Made by a program: the position numbers and the translations under genes
The notes under the pieces: generated by a model
Databases searched by the model: none
What the model saw: only the letters and a program-made list of their open reading frames with translations
Told to the model about the DNA's origin: nothing
From: Akkermansiaceae bacterium
GTDB taxonomy: Bacteria; Verrucomicrobiota; Verrucomicrobiia; Verrucomicrobiales; Akkermansiaceae
Reading direction: 5' to 3'
Assembly (NCBI GenBank): GCA_025362955.1
Contig: JANYFB010000033.1
Span: 1 to 44,652 of the forward strand
DNA: 44,652 nt
Shown: positions 1-44,555 of the stretch, one piece after another
Layout: each line of letters starts with the position of its first letter
How positions within the stretch are numbered: the stretch's first letter is position 1

Positions 1-1372
1 AAGGCCGTTGCTGAGGCTGTTTTTCAGCTTTTGCTGGAGTTCGGTGATGGAAGAAGCCGGAGGGTGGCCAGTAAACAACAGATAGGTGAGCGCTCCCAGC
101 GAAAAAACGTCCAACTCAGTGCCACCGTCGGCATTTCCCGCGATGGCTTCCGGCGCGATATAAACCAGCGAGGAATCCTCAATCAATCGGCTAGCATGGA
201 GAGTCAGCGACATCCGAGTGAGGACGCGGGTGGTGCTGGTTCCTGAAATCCGCGCACCCGTCTGCCAGTTGAAAATCTGGATCAATGGGCGCCCCTTGCT
301 GTCGCGCTTCACTAGGATGCTTTGCGGCGACAAACTGCGGTGGATGATTTTCCTGCCGTGCGCGTAAGAAATCACCTCGGCAACCTGACGCAATCATATC
401 CAGACGCTGATCGACCGGAAGCGAGTCGCCTTCCTCGCGAAGGAAGTGGTCGAGGCGGACGCTTTCCGCATCTCGGCGGAAAAAGAGCACGGGGCCGTAT
501 TCGCACTCGGTGGGCGGGTCCGCTTTGAGTATGGCGGGGTGATCCAGGCGTTCGAGGATCTGGAACTCACGTGCGGCGGCTTTCTCGGTGATTTCGCGGT
601 CTTCTCCGGTGAGTTGCCGGGAGAGCATGTAGTTTCTCGCGCAGCGGCGGGTGGAAGAGTGGCTGACATGATGGGCCAGCCAATCCTGATAGAGCCCGGT
701 CGGGCTGTCGAAGACCAGATCGTCCAGGATAAAGTCCCCGACCTTGCGGGTTTTCTGAGAGGGTTTAATGCCGGCCTGCTCCATTGCCTGGGTGATTGCC
801 TTGATGAGCGGGCGATTTACCGGTGGAGCGTCGTGTTGCCTCAAGCCCGGACATTCGCGCCGACGGATGGCAGCCATGATGCCGGGACGGGTGGTTTTTT
901 CCGCTGGATTTTCCGAATCGCGGAAGGTGACGCCGAAGGTCGCGTTGCCGGTGAGGTGGGATTTCGCCTCCGCGTGGGACAAGAACACGAGGGGTTCGAT
1001 GAACAGATTGCCATCGCGGAAGGCCTTTTGGCGGCTGAGCAGGCTTTTTAGGCGCTTGCACTTGCGGTTGGCGAGGATGAGCGGGTTTTCGACGGTTTTC
1101 CGACGACCCTCGTAGTGCCAGGTCCAGTCCTGCGCGTCACCCCACAGATGCCCGGGGTTGCTCTTGATCTCGATCAGGAAAATACCCTGCGGGCAGGCGA
1201 CGAGCACATCGACCTCGTTGATGGAGCCATCGTCGGCGATAAATTCGAAATTCGCCCATGCGCGGTAGTTGTCCTGGGCAGGAAAACGCTCATGGATGAA
1301 GTCAAGGGCTTCCTGTTCCCAAGGGAATTGGGAGCGGGCCATCGTTTTCCAGTGCTTGTCTGAAGATGCCAT
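1..1372 (-). CDS. NERD-domain kinase-like protein (PglW-like), frameshifted, C-terminus outside window
   Basis: The N-terminus is a NERD nuclease-related domain (about residues 15-130) with the core NEVDVLVACPQGIFLIEIKS, giving candidate catalytic D55, E68 and K70. A protein-kinase-like domain follows. The frame that opens at 1372 is lost near 388-396: beyond that point the homologous reading continues in another frame with HRSLSPQSILV (about 315-348), IFNWQTG (about 264-282), YIAPEA (about 145-166) and DVFSLGALTYLL, and runs open to base 1. The usual HRD aspartate is Ser and the DFG motif is replaced by FNWQ, so it may be a pseudokinase. NERD plus kinase resembles PglW of type-2 BREX phage defence, but the C-terminal part needed to decide is outside the window. 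The start ATG at 1372 was chosen because the family begins just before the SQFPWE segment. The frameshift could be a real mutation or a sequencing error. Confidence 0.7.
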
Positions 1373-1678
1373 AGGGTCGGGAACCGGATCGAAGGCCGAA
1401 GCTCCAAGGAAGCAAGGCACGCACAGTCAATAGGGTTGGGTGTGCTGACACAACGGCAAAACCGGAAACCGGGAACCAGTTGATGATGGAAGCGGATGGA
1501 AAAACCAGTGCAAGCAGTCTCTGCCCCACGAACTTCGGCCTGATCGCGCCGTCCCTGATTGCCATGACGACAAACGAGGATTGAGGTGAAGAATGATTAA
1601 TCACGGGGATCGCGCACGCCGCAACGCCTTCGTGAACGACGATTTTTTTTGGGACGGTCACGTTGCTGAAAGAAACGT
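1373..1678. other. intergenic gap between integrase and NERD-kinase genes
   Basis: No convincing gene is seen. Open frames here are short or are extensions of neighbours. The gap separates the 3' end of the integrase from the 5' end of the kinase-like gene, both on the minus strand, so it should hold the promoter of the kinase-like gene, but no clear -35/-10 pair was recognised. Confidence 0.4.
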
Positions 1679-2833
1679 CTAAACCGCTGCATTCGGCCCG
1701 ATCGAGAAGAAATCAAGCGCCTCCTGCTTGCTGGCCCTTCCGACATAATGCTGGCGCAGGATGGCAGGGGAGCCGGAGTGACCGAATTCGAACAGCAGTG
1801 TCTCTAGCGGCGTGCCGGCGACCACTGCGTAAGATGCGTGCGAGTGTCGCAGCGCATTCTGAGGCCACCGGCCGCGTGTGGGATCCGGCGCTTTCTTGAG
1901 GAGACCTGCAGATACATCCCACCCCGCGAGGCGGCGGCAGGCTTTGTCCACATGGGGCCAATTCGGGCAGGGCTCAAATGGATGCGCCTCCAGCCAAGCC
2001 TTGAGGGTAGCGGAGGGGGTGATGTGGCGACGTCGTCCCTTCTTGGTGACCATCGCCGAAAGCTCGATGCCATCAGCAGTGACATGCCCCGCCTCCAACC
2101 GGGTGAGTTCCTCCGCGCGGACTCCGGCGAAAAGCTGAATCGCATATGACGCGACAGCCTTCGGGTAGTGTTCTTCCGCAGTGCGCAGCAGGGCACGCGC
2201 CTGTTCGACCGTGAGGATTGCGATCTCGTCGCTCTCCCGGGCTGACTTGGGCATTTGCACGCTGGCGAACACATTCGCATCGCACCATCCGCGCTTGGCT
2301 GCCCAACGCCAGAATGCGCGCGCGTTGCGGATCCGCCCCCGCACTGCGGCACCATGGGTTCCCAATGGGGCAATAGCCTCTTGGAGTTCCTCGGCGCTAA
2401 TGTCGGTCAGTAGACGGTCCGCGAAAACGATTTTGAGTTTCTTCCCGCTGTGTTTGTAGGAGTGCTGCGTCCGCTCGCGGAGGCCCTCGTTGGCCTTGAG
2501 CCATGCATCGACAGCTTGATCCGTCCGGCGACTTGCGTTCGCCCGATCTTTAATCGCCACCACCATCCGGGCCGCCTCCACGAGTGAGACGTCCCATGGC
2601 GCGAGGAGCGCTTCCGCCAACGTGGCTGCTTCTGCCAGACTCGGTTTGATGATGCCGGCGGCCTCGCCATGCTGCTGCATCTTTTCGCGAAGCTTGGTGG
2701 CGTGCTCCAAGACACCGGCCTTCGTCTTGTGAAAGTGTCGCTCGCGCTTGCGTGATTCGGCGAAGCTTGCGGGCACGTTCACCATCCACCCGGAGGGCGT
2801 GGACTTGACCTGAAACTTGGCGTGGCGCGCCAT
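1679..2833 (-). CDS. tyrosine recombinase / site-specific integrase
   Basis: 384 aa, a normal length for an island or phage integrase. The N-terminal half (about 1-195) looks like arm-binding plus core-binding SAM-like domain. The catalytic half carries FAGVRAEEL (R239), the beta-strand lysine in VTKKGRRRH (K264/K265), NALRHSHASY (R329, with Asn in place of the first His of box II), FGHSG (H352) and the nucleophile in RQHYVG (Y363), so the enzyme looks intact. It lies directly beside a tRNA-Tyr 3' fragment at 2973-3028, the usual position of an integrase next to its attachment site. It is inferred to have inserted the island that continues to the left. Confidence 0.93.
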   Translation of the reverse strand: MARHAKFQVKSTPSGWMVNVPASFAESRKRERHFHKTKAGVLEHATKLREKMQQHGEAAGIIKPSLAEAATLAEALLAPWDVSLVEAARMVVAIKDRANASRRTDQAVDAWLKANEGLRERTQHSYKHSGKKLKIVFADRLLTDISAEELQEAIAPLGTHGAAVRGRIRNARAFWRWAAKRGWCDANVFASVQMPKSARESDEIAILTVEQARALLRTAEEHYPKAVASYAIQLFAGVRAEELTRLEAGHVTADGIELSAMVTKKGRRRHITPSATLKAWLEAHPFEPCPNWPHVDKACRRLAGWDVSAGLLKKAPDPTRGRWPQNALRHSHASYAVVAGTPLETLLFEFGHSGSPAILRQHYVGRASKQEALDFFSIGPNAAV

Positions 2834-2972
2834 GGGCTAACGCGAAAGATCGTAGGTTTAGTTGCAATCATTGTCATGCCCTTATTGCCTATAAAAACCA
2901 AGAAATGGTGGATTTGGACGACATGGCCGAAAATATCTTGTTAATCATCAAGCTGTTGAGATTACGATGTTC

Positions 2973-3028
2973 GACTGTAAATCTGCTAGCGTAAGCTTAC
3001 GTTGGTTCGAATCCATCTCTACCCACCA
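2973..3028 (+). other. attachment site: 3' fragment of tRNA-Tyr (anticodon GTA)
   Basis: The segment reads as the 3' part of a class-II tRNA-Tyr: anticodon loop CTGTAAA with GTA at 2977-2979, a variable arm with CGTA/TACG stem (2990-3001), T loop TTCGAAT, 3' acceptor strand TCTACCC, discriminator A and encoded CCA (3026-3028). The 5' half is missing: bases before the anticodon loop do not pair with the anticodon stem, and no GGGTAGA-like 5' acceptor strand or D arm lies upstream. The T stem also carries a mismatch. A truncated tRNA 3' end beside an integrase is the classic result of integration into a tRNA gene; the intact tRNA would be at the other island end, to the left of the window. Confidence 0.75.
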
Positions 3029-3047
3029 TTTTAAAATTGCAATTTAG

Positions 3048-3069
3048 GGAGCCGAGAGGCTCCTTTTTT
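3048..3069 (+). terminator. Rho-independent terminator of the tRNA-Tyr locus
   Basis: Perfect 6-bp stem GGAGCC/GGCTCC with GAGA tetraloop followed by six T. It lies 20 bases after the tRNA CCA end, so it is most likely the original tRNA terminator, which marks the right side as ancestral chromosome. Confidence 0.85.
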
Positions 3070-3468
3070 CTGCCCCGACCTGGAGCCGCTTCGGGATGAA
3101 ATTGGAAAATCTGGCTGACTTCGATTGACCATCACAAACTTATTACCGGACATCCTACCGACAAGTTAGTCTGCTTTTAAGAAATCGTCCCAGATTTTAT
3201 GTGGGGGCGTGGGAAACCTTGCAGGACTTTTTAAGTGCGGTTTTCTTACCAAACCAATCTCCAGAATTATACATACGAGGTTCGATGGGGAAAACTTCCT
3301 AGAAGGAACCCTTGCTTATCTGATTTTCTGATCGGTTCGTGGGAAATTCCAACGAGGTAAGCGAGAACCCAAGGAAAAAAGGCATGGAAATATTCCGCTC
3401 TCTTGCCTGCTTTTTCCATCTATTTTTTGTTAGCAAACTCGGATGAGTAGGGAAAGATATCCCATCGC
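3070..3468. other. gene-free stretch after the att site
   Basis: About 400 bases with no open frame that resembles a protein and no further tRNA-like or hairpin structure noticed. It ends at the 3' end of the alcohol dehydrogenase gene. Confidence 0.4.
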
Positions 3469-4743
3469 TCAGGCGAATACCGGAGCGGCCTCTGAAGAGA
3501 TTGTAGGAGCCGGATCATCCAACCCAGAGTCCGCATGCTCAACCGAAGAGATCGGAGCCGGGCGGTTCATCCCAGGCTTGATCACCACCTTAATGCAGCC
3601 GTCGGTCTTGGTGCGGAACTTTTCATAAGCCGCAGGCGCATCTTCTAAGGCAATCCGGTGGGTGATCACAAAGGACGGATCGATCTGGCCCGACTCGATC
3701 TTCTCCAACAGCGGCGCAAGGTAGCGCTGCACGTGGGTTTGGCCCGTTCTAACTGTGATTCCTTTGTTCATCAGCGCGCCGAAAGGGATCTTGTCGAGAA
3801 GCCCGATGTAAACACCCGGAACCGACAGCGTCCCGGCCTTACGACATGCCATGATGGCCTGCCTGAGAGCGTGGGGACGATCCATCGATAGCCCGACCGC
3901 CTGCTTGGCACGATCCATGATGGCATCCATGGATCCGGTCCCATGTGCCTCTGCTCCGACGGCGTCGATGCAGCGGTCTGGACCACGACCACCGGTCATT
4001 TCGATGAGGCGGTCATGGATCGCTTCGTCATCGAAATTGAGCGTTTCGGCCTTGCCGTGGACCCGTGCCATTTCAAGCCGCTCCGGGACTCGATCAATGG
4101 CGATGACGCGGCCCGCACCGAGCATCCAGGCACTCTGGATACAGAATTGTCCGACCGGGCCGCAGCCCCAAATCGCTACGGTGTCACCCGGCTCGATCCC
4201 GGCATTCTCCGCAGCCATGTAGCCGGTCGGAAAGATGTCTGACAGAAAGAGGACTTTGTCGTCAGGCATATCGCTCTCGATCTTGATAGGGCCCACGTCG
4301 GCATGGGGAACTCTAAGGAATTCCGCTTGACCGCCTGGATAGCGGCCCATCATCCCTGAGAAACCAAAGAGGCCAGCTGGTGCCTGCCCCATGGCCACCT
4401 TGGCGAGATCTGCTCCCGGGTTGGTAGTATCACAAGCAGAGTAGAGTTGCTTCTGACAGAAAAAACACGAGCCGCAGGCGATCACAAAAGGCACGACGAC
4501 GCGGTCGCCGATCTGGAATTTCTTCACATCGGACCCTACTTCCACGACAATTCCCATGGGCTCATGGCCGATGATGTCACCCTCCATCATGGTAGGCATG
4601 AGTCCGTCGTAAAGGTGAAGGTCGGAGCCGCAAATCCCACTTGCGGTAACCTGGATGATAATATCTTTGGGATCGAGGATGGATGGGTCTTCCACGGTGT
4701 CCACCCGAACGTCCCCCGTGCCGTGCCAGCAAAGTGCTCTCAT
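3469..4743 (-). CDS. zinc-dependent alcohol dehydrogenase (FDH-like branch of MDR family)
   Basis: 424 aa, cytosolic medium-chain dehydrogenase. The catalytic zinc site is C38 (GICGSDLH), H60 and E61 (IGHEPMG). The structural zinc lobe is C90, C93, C96 and C104. The Rossmann NAD(P)-binding motif is [10 protein letters not shown] near residue 192. The long insert and the [13 protein letters not shown] segment are typical of glutathione-independent formaldehyde dehydrogenase-like proteins; the actual substrate cannot be told. The C-terminus has about 25 extra residues after the conserved end (IKVVIKPG). It stands alone, between the att site and a stress-type operon on the same strand, which may hint at a role in aldehyde detoxification. 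Confidence 0.92.
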
Positions 4744-4812
4744 AATTATTGGTTGTTAGGTTAAATGTTTGATATATTACCTGCGTGCTTGTCGGTAGAT
4801 TGACAAATGGTC

Positions 4813-5826
4813 CTATCTCTGCACTTCGGGGTTATCGTTTGGAATGGGTTTCTGATCGGCATCCGGTGATCCAGAGGGGAGCTTTATACCGGCGTCTTCT
4901 GCAGCGTGAATGGCTTCTGCCTTTGCCTTTTGGAGGATATCGGCACCGCGATCAGCCAGTTCGGATAGTGTCTCGCCGACTTTGTCGGCTGTGAACCCTT
5001 GTTCCTGTGCTTGATCTTTAATGGTTTCCATCACCTTGACGCCCACTTCCTTTCCGGTTTCGAACAATTCGCCCGCTTTTCCCTTGGTTTCGTCAACGAG
5101 CTTGTCGGAGCGCTCACCCATCAAATCATCTTCCCGACGAGTGCGAGGAATGACTAACCCGGCCAATGCGCCCAATGCGGCGAATGCCACACCGACAGCA
5201 AGGGGATACTCATCACAAGCCTGCGTGAATTTCTTTTCCACCACATGATAACCGCCTTTCAAATCATGACCGACGTGGCGTACGGCAGACCTGCTCATGT
5301 CCATTACTCCGTGCGCGCGCTCTTCCAAGCGCTCCGTGGCGTCTTGGAGCTTGTTGCCAATCTGTTGGGACTTGTCGCGAACGCTATCAATCGCGGAGGC
5401 CGTCGTATCTTTGATACCCTCGACTGTGTTATCTACCCAATCCCCAACTGGATGGCCGTCTCCATTTCGATCGCTCGGAATCCTTGTTCCATTAGACCCG
5501 TTGGGACCATAGGAGGGTTCGTCCTTGTGATCGACGGATTCGGATATCAGCCATGCGACACCGGCACCGATCAGCACGGCGGGCATTGGATGACTTCGGG
5601 CCTGACTCGCCAAGGTAGCCACCACTTTCCGCACCGCAGTGCTTGCATGATTACCGTTGTCTGGTGAGTCCCACCAATCCAAGGCTGAATTCATCAGGGA
5701 TCGCGCGCTCAGGCGATTGCCCAATTCGTCAAGGGTGGAATCCATCCGGCCGCGGGCTTTGCGGATATCAGATTCGATTTCAGAACTCGATCTGTTATCT
5801 TCCTTTGTATTAGTTTCCAGTGTCAT
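4813..5826 (-). CDS. DUF3618 domain membrane protein
   Basis: About 337 aa from ATG 5826. Residues after the first 15 carry the DUF3618 signature (SEIESDIRKARGRMDSTLDELG). Two hydrophobic segments follow, AVLIGAGVAWLIS and PLAVGVAFAALGALAGLVIP, separated by long charged amphipathic stretches that could form coiled coil (repeats of VRDKSQQIGNKLQDATERLEE type). It is the third gene of a tightly packed minus-strand operon: the upstream stop TAA overlaps this ATG (TAATG at 5824-5828), which decides this start over the one 24 bases upstream. Proteins of this kind are common beside holin-X-like proteins and are thought to act at the envelope under stress; the function is unproven. Confidence 0.85.
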   Translation of the reverse strand: MTLETNTKEDNRSSSEIESDIRKARGRMDSTLDELGNRLSARSLMNSALDWWDSPDNGNHASTAVRKVVATLASQARSHPMPAVLIGAGVAWLISESVDHKDEPSYGPNGSNGTRIPSDRNGDGHPVGDWVDNTVEGIKDTTASAIDSVRDKSQQIGNKLQDATERLEERAHGVMDMSRSAVRHVGHDLKGGYHVVEKKFTQACDEYPLAVGVAFAALGALAGLVIPRTRREDDLMGERSDKLVDETKGKAGELFETGKEVGVKVMETIKDQAQEQGFTADKVGETLSELADRGADILQKAKAEAIHAAEDAGIKLPSGSPDADQKPIPNDNPEVQR

Positions 5827-6236
5827 TATGATAGTTTGCTTTGTGCCCATTGCTTATCTTCGCGAAGGCTTTGGACGGTTTTTTTGGGTTTGATGGAATT
5901 GTCACGCAGGTTTTTAAGGGCCTTTGAAATAAGAAAGGCACTGATGGCTCCCACCAAAACTGCGATCACGAGGAAGCCAAGGAACGCGGCCTTTCCGGGG
6001 TCGAATCCGCTGTGGGTAAACAGGTCCCCCAACAAGTAGCCGAATGCCATGAACGCCATCATCAGAGCGGATGACGCGACGAGTGCCCCAATTGCCAGGT
6101 AGCCTAGATTGCGACCCGTCTGGGACAGTTTTTCGCCGATCTCGGTTTTTGCCAAGGCCGCCTCTTCGCTGACTAGCGATAGGACGTCGTCTCTTAAATT
6201 CCTGATCAGGTCTGCGATATTTGTTTCAATATTCAT
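5826..6236 (-). CDS. phage holin family / holin-X-like membrane protein (DUF1469 type)
   Basis: 136 aa. The N-terminal amphipathic segment (NIADLIRNLRDDVLSLVSEE, then ALAKTEIGEKL) is typical of the holin-X superfamily, and is followed by two strong transmembrane segments, YLAIGALVASSALMMAFMAF and AAFLGFLVIAVLVGAISAFL, with a short charged tail. Despite the family name there is no lysis gene nearby, so a holin role is unlikely; in this operon it is better seen as an envelope stress protein. Its start overlaps the upstream gene by four bases (ATGA) and its stop overlaps the downstream start, so the three genes are probably translationally coupled. Confidence 0.85.
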   Translation of the reverse strand: MNIETNIADLIRNLRDDVLSLVSEEAALAKTEIGEKLSQTGRNLGYLAIGALVASSALMMAFMAFGYLLGDLFTHSGFDPGKAAFLGFLVIAVLVGAISAFLISKALKNLRDNSIKPKKTVQSLREDKQWAQSKLS

Positions 6237-6862
6237 TGGAATGGATTAGGTTCGAAGTTAGAGGATAGATCGGATTTATTGCCGTCCGTACGAAGCGGGA
6301 GGCGCTCTTGGTAACTGTTTGAGCCAGCTCCCTTGTCTCGCGGCGATCTGCTGTTCTCACGGGATGAGGCTTTCAAGAATCGCACAGATGCGAGGCCGGC
6401 AACAAATAATCCGCCAAACACGATTTCCGGACGTCGCCGCGCGAGGTCTCCTAGATCGTTGAGGAAATCTTTCGCATCGTGGTTTCGTAGATACTCCGCC
6501 GCGCGTTCCATTTGGCGGGACGCCCGTTGCCCGGGCGATACTAACAGGTTGGCATCCCCGTTTTGGAGCGTTTCGCACGCCGCTTTGACGGCTTCCGTGT
6601 ATCGGACGATCTGGCCGGCCAACTTTTCCTTCTGTTCGTCGATATAGTTGCTTCCCGCGTCCTTCGCGGTTTGCAAGGCTTCGCTGCCGTTCTCTTTGAG
6701 GTTTGCGGCGACTTGCGTAATTTGCTCGCCAGCCGCTTCCTTAACTTCCTGAAAGGGCGATGGCGGGTTGTTGGATGGGGCGCTTTCCTCCGGTATGGGG
6801 GACGAATCGGATTGCGGTGGCATCATTGCGGGCGAGGACCGCTCCAAGGTTTCGGTATTCAT
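6233..6862 (-). CDS. one-TM stress-type protein, first gene of the three-gene operon
   Basis: 209 aa. A Ser/Pro-rich acidic N-terminus (1-38) leads into a long amphipathic helix region with LEA/apolipoprotein-like character (EQITQVAANLKENGSEAL, then a KEKLAGQIVRYTEAV segment), then one short membrane segment (PEIVFGGLFVAGLASVRFL) and a polar tail. It resembles proteins annotated as nutrient deprivation-induced, but no firm family is recognised. It heads the operon with the holin-X-like and DUF3618 genes, sharing an ATGA overlap. The promoter should lie in 6863-7121; no clear box was identified. Confidence 0.75.
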   Translation of the reverse strand: MNTETLERSSPAMMPPQSDSSPIPEESAPSNNPPSPFQEVKEAAGEQITQVAANLKENGSEALQTAKDAGSNYIDEQKEKLAGQIVRYTEAVKAACETLQNGDANLLVSPGQRASRQMERAAEYLRNHDAKDFLNDLGDLARRRPEIVFGGLFVAGLASVRFLKASSRENSRSPRDKGAGSNSYQERLPLRTDGNKSDLSSNFEPNPFQ

Positions 6863-7121
6863 TGGGATGGGATAATTTCGGAGTTACACAGCTTAATGAT
6901 TCCAAGGCGGAATTTCATTGTTGCTGAAAACTTCTTTTCGCAGAACCCGTGCCAGCCCTTAGTAGCCTTTGAACGCGATACCTACGTAGGGTCATGAATA
7001 CATCCACCTGCAATCTGCAAGGCCAAGGTGCACATTGCGCTCAATATGGAAATGCATCTAGCAGCATTTAGTTTTCACCTTGCCTCAGTCAAAATTAGAC
7101 ACTCCTGCTTGAATTAAGCTC

Positions 7122-7400
7122 CTACAATCGACGCGCTAACTCTGTTGCGTTTCGAACCGCGTTGGTATAACGATCGTTGTTGAAATACGCCCACACACGC
7201 TTGGCACAGGACTCTTTGATCCGGCTCACCCATAATGCGAGCTCATCGTCCGAGTAGTCATGCAGATACCATTTCGCCAGTCCGTGAAAGCGGATGTAAA
7301 CATCATCGGCGGTCCTTACCAACTTGTCGGGCAATTTCGGGGTGCTGCAGGAAAAGAAGATAGTTCCGGCTTTTTTGAGATGCATTACAGACCCGGTCAT
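7122..7400 (-). pseudogene. DUF72 protein, C-terminal remnant
   Basis: 92 aa that match only the C-terminal third of DUF72 (YecE-like) proteins: TADDVYIRFHG, then WYLHDYSDDELALWVSRI and VWAYFNNDRY. The normal protein is about 240-260 aa with a TIM-barrel-like fold, so about 150 N-terminal residues are absent. Nothing resembling the missing part is seen immediately upstream. It is taken as a 5'-deleted pseudogene; a short product from the ATG at 7400 cannot be excluded. Confidence 0.65.
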
Positions 7401-7591
7401 TCCACCAACTCTTGTGCCGAAACCGGGATATTTTGAGGGCCGACCATGGCGAATCGGCTATGTAGCTTTCACAGAGTCATCTTGTGAATGCCATACGATG
7501 TAGGGTTTTGCCCCAGTTGCAGGCATAACGAAACCACCTAGACTTCCGCGGTCTTAATCGTCTATCAAAATTTTTAACCATCCAAACTCCG

Positions 7592-8536
7592 ATGTTCTAT
7601 CACTCACAAAACCTGATCAATCCAATCGTCGTTGATGAACCCGATCCGTCAGCCGCCAATGCTTTGCAAGAAGGCCTAGGCGGCCAGTTTGGCGAAATGC
7701 GGACCATGATGCAATACCTGTTTCAAAGCTTCAACTTCCGGGGAGACGGATTGCCTTACCGGGATCTCATCCAAGGCATCGCAATCGAAGAGATAAGCCA
7801 TGTCGAACTTATCTCCAAAACAATATCCCAACTGCTGGATGGAGCGCCGGGCTACTATGGAAAGAAATTCGAGGTGCCCGGCAAAGGAGGTGCTACCCCG
7901 ATGGACATGGCGAAGGAACAACAGAATCCCCATCATTTTATTGTAGGAGCCCAAGGAGCGCTGCCTGTCGATGCCGCTGGCAATCCATGGAGCGGCAGTT
8001 ATGTGCATTGCAATGGAAACCTGGTGCTTGATTTATTGGACAACCTGGTCTTGGAATCAACCGGGCGCTTGCAAAAATGCAGGATCTACCAGATGTCGGA
8101 AAATAAGACACTGCGCGCCACGGTGGCCTTCCTGATCGCGCGGGATGAAGCCCACGAAATGGCCTTTGCAAAGGCCTTGGAAACATTGGGCGTCCAATGG
8201 AACAAGCTGTTGCCCATCCCTAAATTCGACTCATCACAATATCCGGAGGTCAAGAAACTGATAGATGCCGGCGTGAACCGCGAGCAATACCATTTCCGGC
8301 TGGATGAGTCTCAAATGGCGTCGATTTTCAGCGGTTCTGCCCCGGCGAATGACGGGACTGAGCTGGTTACTCTAGCAGAGCCCAGGGAGGTCTATCCGAT
8401 CCCTGCCGCGCCTGAGCGTCCTGAGGAGTTCTCGCCTGGGCTGGATCCGGAGTTGCAGGATCTTGCTGACGCTCTTTTACAGGCAAAGGAGAAGATCCGG
8501 TCCGGCGGTAAGCAGAACCGTTCCAAGAAAAAATAA
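7592..8536 (+). CDS. manganese catalase (dimanganese, non-haem)
   Basis: 314 aa, full length for the family. It disproportionates hydrogen peroxide to water and oxygen in the cytosol with a dinuclear Mn centre in a four-helix bundle. Ligand motifs are visible: GEMRTMMQY (E35), IEEISHVE (E67, H70), VLEST (E155) and RDEAHEM (H188). The conserved start MFYHSQNLINPI agrees with the chosen ATG. The C-terminus ends in a polar lysine-rich tail (GGKQNRSKKK). It has no close operon partner but lies among other stress-related genes (PRC-barrel, DUF892, YflT-like). Confidence 0.95.
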   Translation: MFYHSQNLINPIVVDEPDPSAANALQEGLGGQFGEMRTMMQYLFQSFNFRGDGLPYRDLIQGIAIEEISHVELISKTISQLLDGAPGYYGKKFEVPGKGGATPMDMAKEQQNPHHFIVGAQGALPVDAAGNPWSGSYVHCNGNLVLDLLDNLVLESTGRLQKCRIYQMSENKTLRATVAFLIARDEAHEMAFAKALETLGVQWNKLLPIPKFDSSQYPEVKKLIDAGVNREQYHFRLDESQMASIFSGSAPANDGTELVTLAEPREVYPIPAAPERPEEFSPGLDPELQDLADALLQAKEKIRSGGKQNRSKKK

Positions 8537-10994: not shown

Positions 10995-11753
10995 ATGAAA
11001 CTACTGAAAAACACACTCGCTTCGGCGCTTCTTGGACTTGCACTATGTCACACTGCCCGCTCCGAGCCGGAGTCCCAAGGGGCTTCTTTGGAAGCTGACC
11101 AAACCTCGATGAAAAAGGATCACGTCATGATGAAGGATGATAAAATGATGGTCATGAAAGATGGCAAAGTCATGATGATGGAAAAGGATATGACTCTGGC
11201 AGACGGCACGAAGGTCATGATGAACGGCAAGGTGATGATGAAGGACGGAACGACGGCGATGATGTCCGAAGGCGACAAGATTTCCATGGAAGGCAAAATG
11301 ATGCCGGCCGGAATGAAGATGGATCACATCATGATGAAAAAAGGCAAGATGACGGTTAAAATGAACGGCAAAAACATGGTGATGGCCCACGACATGACCC
11401 TAACGGACGGCACCAAGGTCATGATGGATGGTAACGTGATGATGAAGGGCGGAAAGGCCATGATGATGGCCGAAGGCGACATGATCACGATGGACGGCAA
11501 AATGACGAAAGGTAAAATGGTCGGTGATCAGGTGACGATGAAAAATGGCAAGATGATGGTGATGAAGGGCGGCGAAACTATGATGATGACGAAAAACATG
11601 ACTCTGTCCGATGGCACCCAAGTCATGACGGATGGCAAGGTGATGACTGAGGGCGGGAAATCCATGATGATGTCTGAAGGGGACATGATCATGATGGATG
11701 GGACTATGAAAAAGGCCGAGGAATCTCCGAAAGAGCCTGAAAGCAAAAACTAA
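10995..11753 (+). CDS. methionine-rich secreted protein with three DUF6799-like repeats
   Basis: 252 aa from ATG 10995; the frame is open further upstream but the Sec signal peptide (KNTLASALLGLALCHTARSE, cut near residue 22) fixes this start. The mature protein is built of three repeats of about 60 residues (about 42-98, 109-168, 178-236), each with a K-M-x-V-M-x-x-G-K short strand, the motif DMTL(A/T/S)DGT(K/Q)VM and a (A/S)EGDxI end. 57 of 252 residues are Met, and it has no Cys after the signal. The units match what is called DUF6799 in Bacteroidota/Verrucomicrobiota proteins. A periplasmic metal (copper or silver) binding or oxidant-sink role is an inference from Met density only. It is followed by a clear terminator, so it is probably monocistronic. 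Confidence 0.88.
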   Translation: MKLLKNTLASALLGLALCHTARSEPESQGASLEADQTSMKKDHVMMKDDKMMVMKDGKVMMMEKDMTLADGTKVMMNGKVMMKDGTTAMMSEGDKISMEGKMMPAGMKMDHIMMKKGKMTVKMNGKNMVMAHDMTLTDGTKVMMDGNVMMKGGKAMMMAEGDMITMDGKMTKGKMVGDQVTMKNGKMMVMKGGETMMMTKNMTLSDGTQVMTDGKVMTEGGKSMMMSEGDMIMMDGTMKKAEESPKEPESKN

Positions 11754-43577: not shown

Positions 43578-44555
43578 ATGAACCGCACCGCAACCGAGAA
43601 AAGAGCGATGATCATCCGCTGCCTTACCGAAGGAAACTCGATTCGTTCAACGGTCCGGATGACTGGAGCTGCCAAGAACACGGTGACCAAGCTGGTCGTT
43701 GAGTTCGGAGAATTTGCAGCATGGTATCAGGACAAGATGCTTCGTGACCTCAAATGCACGGACTTGCAACTTGATGAGATTTGGGCGTTCTGCGGTTGCA
43801 AGGAGAAAAACAAGGGGACTTCCAGCCACCCGCAGGGCGGCGACATCTGGACTTGGACGGCACTCTGCCGGGACACAAAGCTCGTTCCTTCGTGGTTGGT
43901 CGGGGATCGCGGCATGAACTCCGCCCGTGAGATTGTCGATGACCTTGCCTCCCGCCTCGCCAATCGCGTCCAAATCAGCACAGACGGGCACCGGGCATAC
44001 GTTCACGCCATCAAGGGAGCTTTTGGCCATGACGTTGACTATGGCCGTCTTATCAAGGTTTACGGAACAGACAACCAAGGCCGGGAAATCGTAGTTCGTG
44101 CCGACAAGGTTCCTACCATTGGAAATCCTGAAATGGACAATGTTTGCACAAGCCACGTTGAACGCCAGAATCTCACGATGAGAATGCAGATGCGTCGATT
44201 CACTCGGCTGACCAATGGATTTTCTAAAAAGGCTGAGAACCATGCCGCCATGGTTTCCATTCATTTCTTGAACTACAATTTCATCCGCAAGCATCAGACG
44301 CTCAAAACAGCGCCTGCTGTTGCAGCCGGGGTAATCAGCAAGCCGATGACGCTGGAAGAACTTCTGGACCTCTTTGACGAGTTCCGCTCAGACCTGTATC
44401 CGGTGAACCGTCCGCTACGCTACCGTCCACGCTCCAACCGTGAAACCTACGAGCCGCAGACACCACTTACGCCGTGGTATCTCGATCCTGAGAGCGGAGG
44501 CCGATGCCCGCCGATGGATCAGCGGAAACCGGGGATTGCGTATGGTGACGAATAA
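43578..44555 (+). CDS. IS1-type DDE transposase
   Basis: 325 aa from ATG 43578. N-terminal helix-turn-helix (TEGNSIRSTVRMTGAAKNTV), then the catalytic core aligned with IS1 InsB: LDEIWAFCG (D66), ISTDGHRAYVHAI (D136) and SHVERQNLTMRMQMRRFTRL (E195), with the FSKKAENHAAMVSIHFLNYN segment after it. All three acidic residues are present and the frame is intact, so it is probably active. The protein is longer than E. coli InsB' (about 232 aa) and needs no frameshift. The stop lies 2 bases before the right inverted repeat. It carries an extra C-terminal tail of about 60 residues rich in Pro and Arg. Confidence 0.88.
   Translation: MNRTATEKRAMIIRCLTEGNSIRSTVRMTGAAKNTVTKLVVEFGEFAAWYQDKMLRDLKCTDLQLDEIWAFCGCKEKNKGTSSHPQGGDIWTWTALCRDTKLVPSWLVGDRGMNSAREIVDDLASRLANRVQISTDGHRAYVHAIKGAFGHDVDYGRLIKVYGTDNQGREIVVRADKVPTIGNPEMDNVCTSHVERQNLTMRMQMRRFTRLTNGFSKKAENHAAMVSIHFLNYNFIRKHQTLKTAPAVAAGVISKPMTLEELLDLFDEFRSDLYPVNRPLRYRPRSNRETYEPQTPLTPWYLDPESGGRCPPMDQRKPGIAYGDE

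Follow-up and report, generated by a model that had tools for sequence, protein, structure and literature searches.

The left end of a contig from an Akkermansiaceae genome carries an integrase gene beside a partial tRNA gene, which raises the question of whether this is the edge of an integrative island and, if so, in which direction the island runs and what it carries. The window analysed here (44,652 nucleotides) is the entire contig C54 of G000, a draft genome split into 352 contigs and about 90% complete. The locus is, with high confidence, the attR end of an integrative island, which its own integrase inserted into a tRNA-Tyr(GUA) gene, which carries BREX and Shedu-like cargo and which extends leftward out of the contig. 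It is a real element but of an ordinary kind; the notable part is the family-wide switching of the target tRNA.

Two features describe the remains of the tRNA gene:
2973..3028, + strand: displaced tRNA-Tyr(GUA) 3' fragment (attR), 100% identical to positions 31-86 of an intact tRNA-Tyr
2975-2981, + strand: anticodon loop CTGTAAA, 7 nt, where strand exchange would be expected

The tRNA-Tyr(gta) of G003, a relative of the same genus, is 86 nt long, and the fragment aligns with its positions 31-86 with zero mismatches. The fragment runs from the anticodon stem-loop to CCA, in the same orientation, and reaches the tRNA 3' end. When the window is aligned with 31 other tRNA-Tyr sites, similarity among the intact genes extends to either side of the anticodon loop; in the window and at four sites (in G004, G018, G027 and G029) it starts only at about the loop, and left of 2973 the window ceases to resemble intact tRNA-Tyr genes. 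No complete tRNA was found in the window by ARAGORN, nor by Rfam at the gathering threshold, and thus none at 2940-3028, where a complete tRNA-Tyr would have spoken against an island edge. An earlier note on this DNA had placed a tRNA-Tyr 3' fragment without its 5' half beside the integrase, and the exact match, together with the loss of similarity upstream of 2973, bears this out.

The neighbouring gene is the following:
1679..2833, - strand: intact tyrosine-recombinase integrase, 384 aa, recognised by profile match and catalytic residues

Its start lies 140 bp from the fragment and the gene points left. The protein matches phrog_1 (integrase) with an E value of 5.6e-25 and has a XerC-like match (E 1e-11) that is far under the curated cut-off. 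The catalytic residues R239, K264, R329, H352 and Y363 are present; box II reads N326-x-x-R329, and this N-x-x-R form occurs in 31 of 34 homologues, the other three having D-x-x-R (counts made without L008, which lies at a contig edge). The description of the gene as an intact tyrosine integrase therefore holds by phrog_1 and by conserved catalytic residues, yet a Pfam scan gave no match at 0.001. Since PF00589 was not reached at that threshold, a pipeline based on PF00589 could miss this integrase. The enzyme is presumably active.

Comparison with homologous integrases shows that the arrangement is not peculiar to the window. Close homologues came from three sets: 59 searched genomes; 260 genomes of the family, among which 33 matched at E ≤ 1e-60; and named genomes, which gave two loci (uncultured Verrucomicrobiales and Akkermansiaceae). 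In each of the 36 close homologues whose upstream side was checked, the integrase start adjoins a tRNA 3' fragment truncated at the anticodon loop. These homologues comprise 35 loci and L014, which had first been omitted because its match begins at residue 83 and which on checking proved to have a Leu(AAG) fragment. The first tRNA position retained is 20-33 (mostly 27-33) in the 35 fragments and, by a weaker alignment, 36 in that of L014. A tRNA match at E ≤ 1e-6 is present in the upstream regions of 35/35 loci and in 0/700 block-shuffled copies; on the downstream side of the integrase there is none in 33 loci, two of the 35 having too little sequence to be included. When each is named after the tRNA of G004 or of another locus that it matches best, the fragments of the 35 loci represent 14 isoacceptors: Tyr, Leu(UAA, AAG, CAG), Ser(CGA), Thr(CGU, UGU), His, Asn, Arg(ACG, UCU), Pro(UGG), Lys(CUU) and Phe. 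The anticodon loop lies 107-201 bp from the integrase start across the family (median 115; some starts were estimated from the match) and 141 bp from it in the window. In these counts L098 apparently duplicates L006, and several further matches among the 260 genomes stand outside them, except for a second integrase of G182 and G018:C45. Integrase sublocation was reportedly treated by Williams in 2002. Among 14 more distant homologues (L019-L032), nine have a tRNA or tRNA fragment within the flanks covered and five have none. At one of these, L021 (922-3667), an intact tRNA-Arg(CCU) stands only about 2.7 kb from a 3' fragment of the same tRNA; this locus is either a very small element or a remnant.

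The direction of the island can be read from relatives in which both ends are visible. In five of the six islands with adequate coverage, an intact tRNA stands at the far end, past the integrase, giving islands of about 7 to 66 kb:
G016:C75, Ser(CGA): fragment within 2294-2365, intact copy at 11220-11307, about 8.9 kb
G191:C12, Leu(UAA): copies at 44417-44470 and 52178-52260, 7.8 kb
G269:C23, Pro(UGG): copies at 209447-209503 and 202732-202808, 6.8 kb
G182, Lys(UUU): copies at 2797205-2797252 and 2731361-2731433, 65.9 kb
G004:C1 (closed genome), tRNA-Tyr tandem array, loci L062-L069, 495909-625499: fragments at 495909 and 555380, intact tRNA-Tyr at 625.4 kb

The G004 array consists of islands of about 59 and 70 kb. 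Each fragment has an integrase next to it, and the two integrases come from different subfamilies; the one adjoining the fragment at 495.9 kb is the homologue of the window integrase. For the sixth island, Thr(CGU) of G182, no intact partner was found within about 100 kb. Other stretches, in which no intact partner was seen, were too short to reveal one, namely those of G170 (20 kb), G139 (15 kb) and G215, G246, G256, G175 and G018:C45 (2.6-6.4 kb). In all five bounded islands the order is fragment, integrase, intact tRNA, which in the orientation of the window means leftward. The extension of the island to the left from 2972, which had been proposed from the usual geometry, thus has direct parallels in five islands with homologous integrases; together with the family-wide layout, these identify the locus as the attR edge of a left-running, tRNA-targeted island. 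Furthermore, the upstream neighbours of tRNA-Tyr are common to many relatives and its downstream neighbours are hardly shared, which fits an integration hotspot at tRNA-Tyr.

Three of the bounded elements with this integrase family are small, at 7-9 kb (L178 400-8270, L175 12730-19520 and L071 2290-11307), and carry primase/AAA or Mu-like and DUF5681 genes; they are possibly phage satellites of the lineage.

In the favoured reading, the integrase, encoded at the attR end, recombined the chromosomal tRNA-Tyr with an attP that itself bore the 3' half of such a tRNA gene. Strand exchange would have taken place within the 7-bp anticodon loop, which the anticodon stem flanks with inverted arms (5'-GA-CTGTAAA-TC-3'). 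The 3'-half copy of the element would then complete a working tRNA-Tyr at the far left end, the presumed attL, while the 3' half belonging to the chromosome would have been displaced to 2973-3028. The island runs left off the contig, with a type-2 BREX module and a Shedu-like gene as its cargo. We infer its attL, its length and the exact cleavage points.

Between the integrase start and the core lie three features, to which no strand is assigned:
2834..2972: element-borne P arm, from integrase start to core, with a comparable layout in 35 homologous loci at 14 different tRNAs
2877..2889: arm-type motif TGCC-CTTA-TTGCC, a putative integrase arm site of the pattern GCC-n4-7-YRCC
2901..2930: repeats AGAAATGGTGG, GATTTGGACG and ACATGGCCGA, spaced by about 10 bp, a putative second group of arm sites according to the P-arm comparison

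The pattern GCC-n4-7-YRCC, which was picked after inspection of the data, occurs in 24/35 loci as against 2.6% of mononucleotide shuffles. The 9-bp inverted copy of the tRNA end that the earlier note had pointed out (AAATGGTGG) is indeed present at 2903-2911, inside the 10-bp-spaced repeats; a 9-mer of such kind arises in 2.7% of shuffles of the 139-bp stretch. Its meaning as a functional tRNA-end signal was rejected, as it sits among the arm repeats and as ATGGTG takes its place in L004 and L148, whose neighbouring fragments are of tRNA-Leu. The 9-mer is probably part of the arm-site region of the integrase and not a tRNA feature.

The cargo begins on the far side of the integrase, where two reading frames of one gene are found:
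191..1420, - strand: 5' part of pglW, NERD-domain serine/threonine kinase of BREX type 2 (NF033442), with a frame shift near 393
1..393, - strand: continuation of pglW, kinase domain, in another frame, running off the contig, with the 3' part on contig C205

The first frame matches the BREX PglW profile NF033442 over positions 1-319 (E 2e-102) and the second covers profile positions 318-440. The NERD-kinase gene previously taken as island cargo is therefore the PglW of a type-2 BREX system, and it continues on C205 (L095, G000:C205, 1-8421; 8,421 bp), which begins inside pglW. Measured on the intact 1,424-aa PglW of G025, the window encodes residues 7-450, changing frame once at 325. The pglW part of C205 (L095 2-647) encodes residues 589-685 and, after a change of frame, 1295-1421. 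The gap between C54 and C205 thus amounts to about 140 residues, and about 610 codons are missing inside C205. As pglW is split between the two contigs, C205 would adjoin C54, the two having no overlapping bases, and C205 very probably continues the island. The other genes of C205 are an HNH gene, an AbiEii-like gene, a homologue of SduA (Shedu; E 1.2e-58) and a frameshifted pglX that ends at profile position 839 of 1189. An ORF after pglX, at the end of C205, is presumably the start of an IS110 transposase, to judge by its appearance. The markers of BREX type 2 are thus PglW, in pieces on C54 and C205, and PglX on C205, of which only PglX scores over the curated cut-off. The damage to pglW and pglX could reflect either decay or assembly error. 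PglW at E ≤ 1e-100 was found in 3 of 73 genomes of the genus, the own genome included.

The other end of the island was sought in the same draft genome. Neither a DNA search nor a tRNA-Tyr pattern found an intact tRNA-Tyr there, only the window fragment, and no tRNA-Tyr 5' half was found with up to three mismatches. The second tRNA-Tyr copy expected to the left is therefore absent from this fragmented assembly, and the attL is unseen for that reason. The aminotransferase-CPBP gene pair, which precedes tRNA-Tyr in many relatives, lies on G000:C44, with no tRNA-Tyr in the roughly 680 bp to the contig end.

On the right, the fragment is followed by one further feature:
3042..3070, + strand: rho-independent terminator of tRNA-Tyr type, seen in the sequence, with the same hairpin 3' of intact tRNA-Tyr genes of relatives

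This hairpin (GGGAGCC-GAGA-GGCTCC-T6) stands directly 3' of the fragment and also after the intact tRNA-Tyr of several relatives, so that the tRNA terminator does remain on the right, as had been claimed. Elements can carry a copy of it. In G029 an exact 92-bp repeat, from CTGTAAATC through most of the terminator, is shared by the contig with the intact tRNA-Tyr and the contig with the fragment, and in G004 the usual terminator stands at the intact tRNA-Tyr copy, not at the last fragment. Since these copies adjoin an intact tRNA, the terminator at 3042-3070 cannot by itself tell chromosome from element.

Further right, the window holds a stress-type cluster at 3469-8536 (alcohol dehydrogenase, DUF3618, holin-X-like and Mn-catalase genes). 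Close homologues of the alcohol dehydrogenase (E ≤ 1e-120) occur in only 3 of 72 other genomes of the genus, none with a tRNA within the 1.5-kb flanks, so that the right flank may be accessory too. Of the proposed comparison with relatives lacking the island, one part stands, as intact tRNA-Tyr sites do exist among them; none of these carries the right flank of the window, and a search via right-flank genes found no empty site with that flank among relatives.

The fragment could also be an attR within a tandem array, the DNA to its right being not the ancestral chromosome but accessory or island DNA that came to this hotspot earlier. Tandem tRNA-Tyr islands are known in G004, and the right flank of the window (alcohol dehydrogenase, Mn-catalase and others) looks accessory, the few dehydrogenase homologues included. 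However, no second integrase or tRNA fragment was noticed rightward (ORFs to 8000; beyond, 10 proteins scanned), the window has no complete tRNA, the genome has a single tRNA-Tyr fragment, and a terminator of tRNA-Tyr type follows the fragment directly; we consider such an array unlikely. A chimeric assembly, in which a mobile element was joined to an unrelated chromosomal segment at the tRNA, would fit a draft of 352 contigs with frameshifts in pglW and pglX, but is very improbable in view of a fragment-terminator junction that resembles those of intact relatives and a spacing of 141 bp from integrase start to loop, inside the family range. That the tRNA-Tyr 5' half was lost by ordinary deletion or rearrangement, with an integrase nearby by chance, is hardly credible: the assembly does lack an intact tRNA-Tyr copy, but this account is already contradicted by the family-wide layout, with an identically placed and oriented tRNA 3' fragment in 36/36 homologues, at 14 isoacceptors, and on the other side in 0/33.

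With the locus read as the attR edge of a tRNA-Tyr island, the change of target within the integrase family can be considered. A tree of 35 integrases, which between them use 14 targets, requires no fewer than 17 changes of target. The window integrase groups with Leu(UAA)-targeting ones (68% identity to L145; support 88, not starred). The Leu(UAA) core of these nearest relatives (CTTAAAA-TC) and the Tyr core (CTGTAAA-TC) have loops that differ only around the anticodon, which suggests that the anticodon, placed in the overlap, is exchangeable without loss of the protein contacts. The two bases before the 7-nt loop, on the element-derived side, are GA in 13/15 loci of the window clade as against 5/20 of the others. 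Moreover, an A31-T39 closing pair is found in 12/15 targeted tRNAs versus 5/23 other isoacceptors of G004 (Fisher p 7e-4), and GA-N7-TC in 11/15 targeted versus 4/23 other G004 isoacceptors (p 9e-4); these enrichments were chosen post hoc, with G004 sequences standing in for all genomes, and are only a lead. Over all pairs with different targets, related integrases did not have significantly more similar anticodon stems (correlation 0.10, p about 0.2), nor did the same test on the anticodon itself give a significant result (correlation 0.07, p about 0.24).

Tentatively, and with somewhat less than even confidence, we propose that for this Verrucomicrobiales integrase clade the anticodon may be an exchangeable address. 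Anchoring would be provided by conserved arm sites next to the integrase gene and by short GA-N7-TC core arms that fit the closing pairs of the anticodon stem, and the anticodon would lie in an overlap that needs only to match between the partners, which would have allowed the clade to move across at least 15 isoacceptors. The window integrase would have switched to tRNA-Tyr(GUA) beside users of tRNA-Leu(UAA). It is the general test of stem similarity (p about 0.2) that keeps this idea a hypothesis.

The available portions of the literature on verrucomicrobial tRNA islands, on BREX on tRNA islands and on Akkermansiaceae satellites include no description of this integrase family, which is no proof of absence. 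The locus gives a firm edge and a cargo for a defence island in an environmental lineage, for which the same portions of the literature offered no such mapped island. Furthermore, the related integrases form a natural series, with fixed geometry at no fewer than 15 tRNA genes, that provides a way to study target change; it could separate the bases read by the integrase from those that merely match between the partners.

Among known systems, the closest are islands of the Islander type at the anticodon subsite 'A', as described in PMC4383910, where anticodon-centred sites account for 2083 of 3919 islands. The window island is like these in its displaced tDNA 3' fragment, its internal tyrosine integrase and an anticodon-loop crossover, and the tandem arrays and frequent switching of target tRNA reported there recur in its integrase family. 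A review notes that the 7-bp anticodon loop and the palindromic stem resemble a canonical overlap and core (PMC8371274). The window differs from the Islander type in coming from a draft genome in which the regenerated tRNA is unseen, and in an integrase below PF00589 detection at E 0.001. The cargo resembles BREX type 2 (Pgl) and Shedu (NF033442, NF033451, PADLOC SduA), C54 and C205 between them matching the PglW, PglX and SduA profiles; it departs from intact BREX type 2 in a pglW with frame changes and about 610 internal codons missing, and in a frameshifted pglX that stops at 839/1189. Finally, the small satellite-like elements of G191, G269 and G016 have the integrase family and the attachment geometry of the window, but are 7-9 kb long with primase or AAA, or Mu-like and DUF5681 genes, whereas the window island carries defence cargo.
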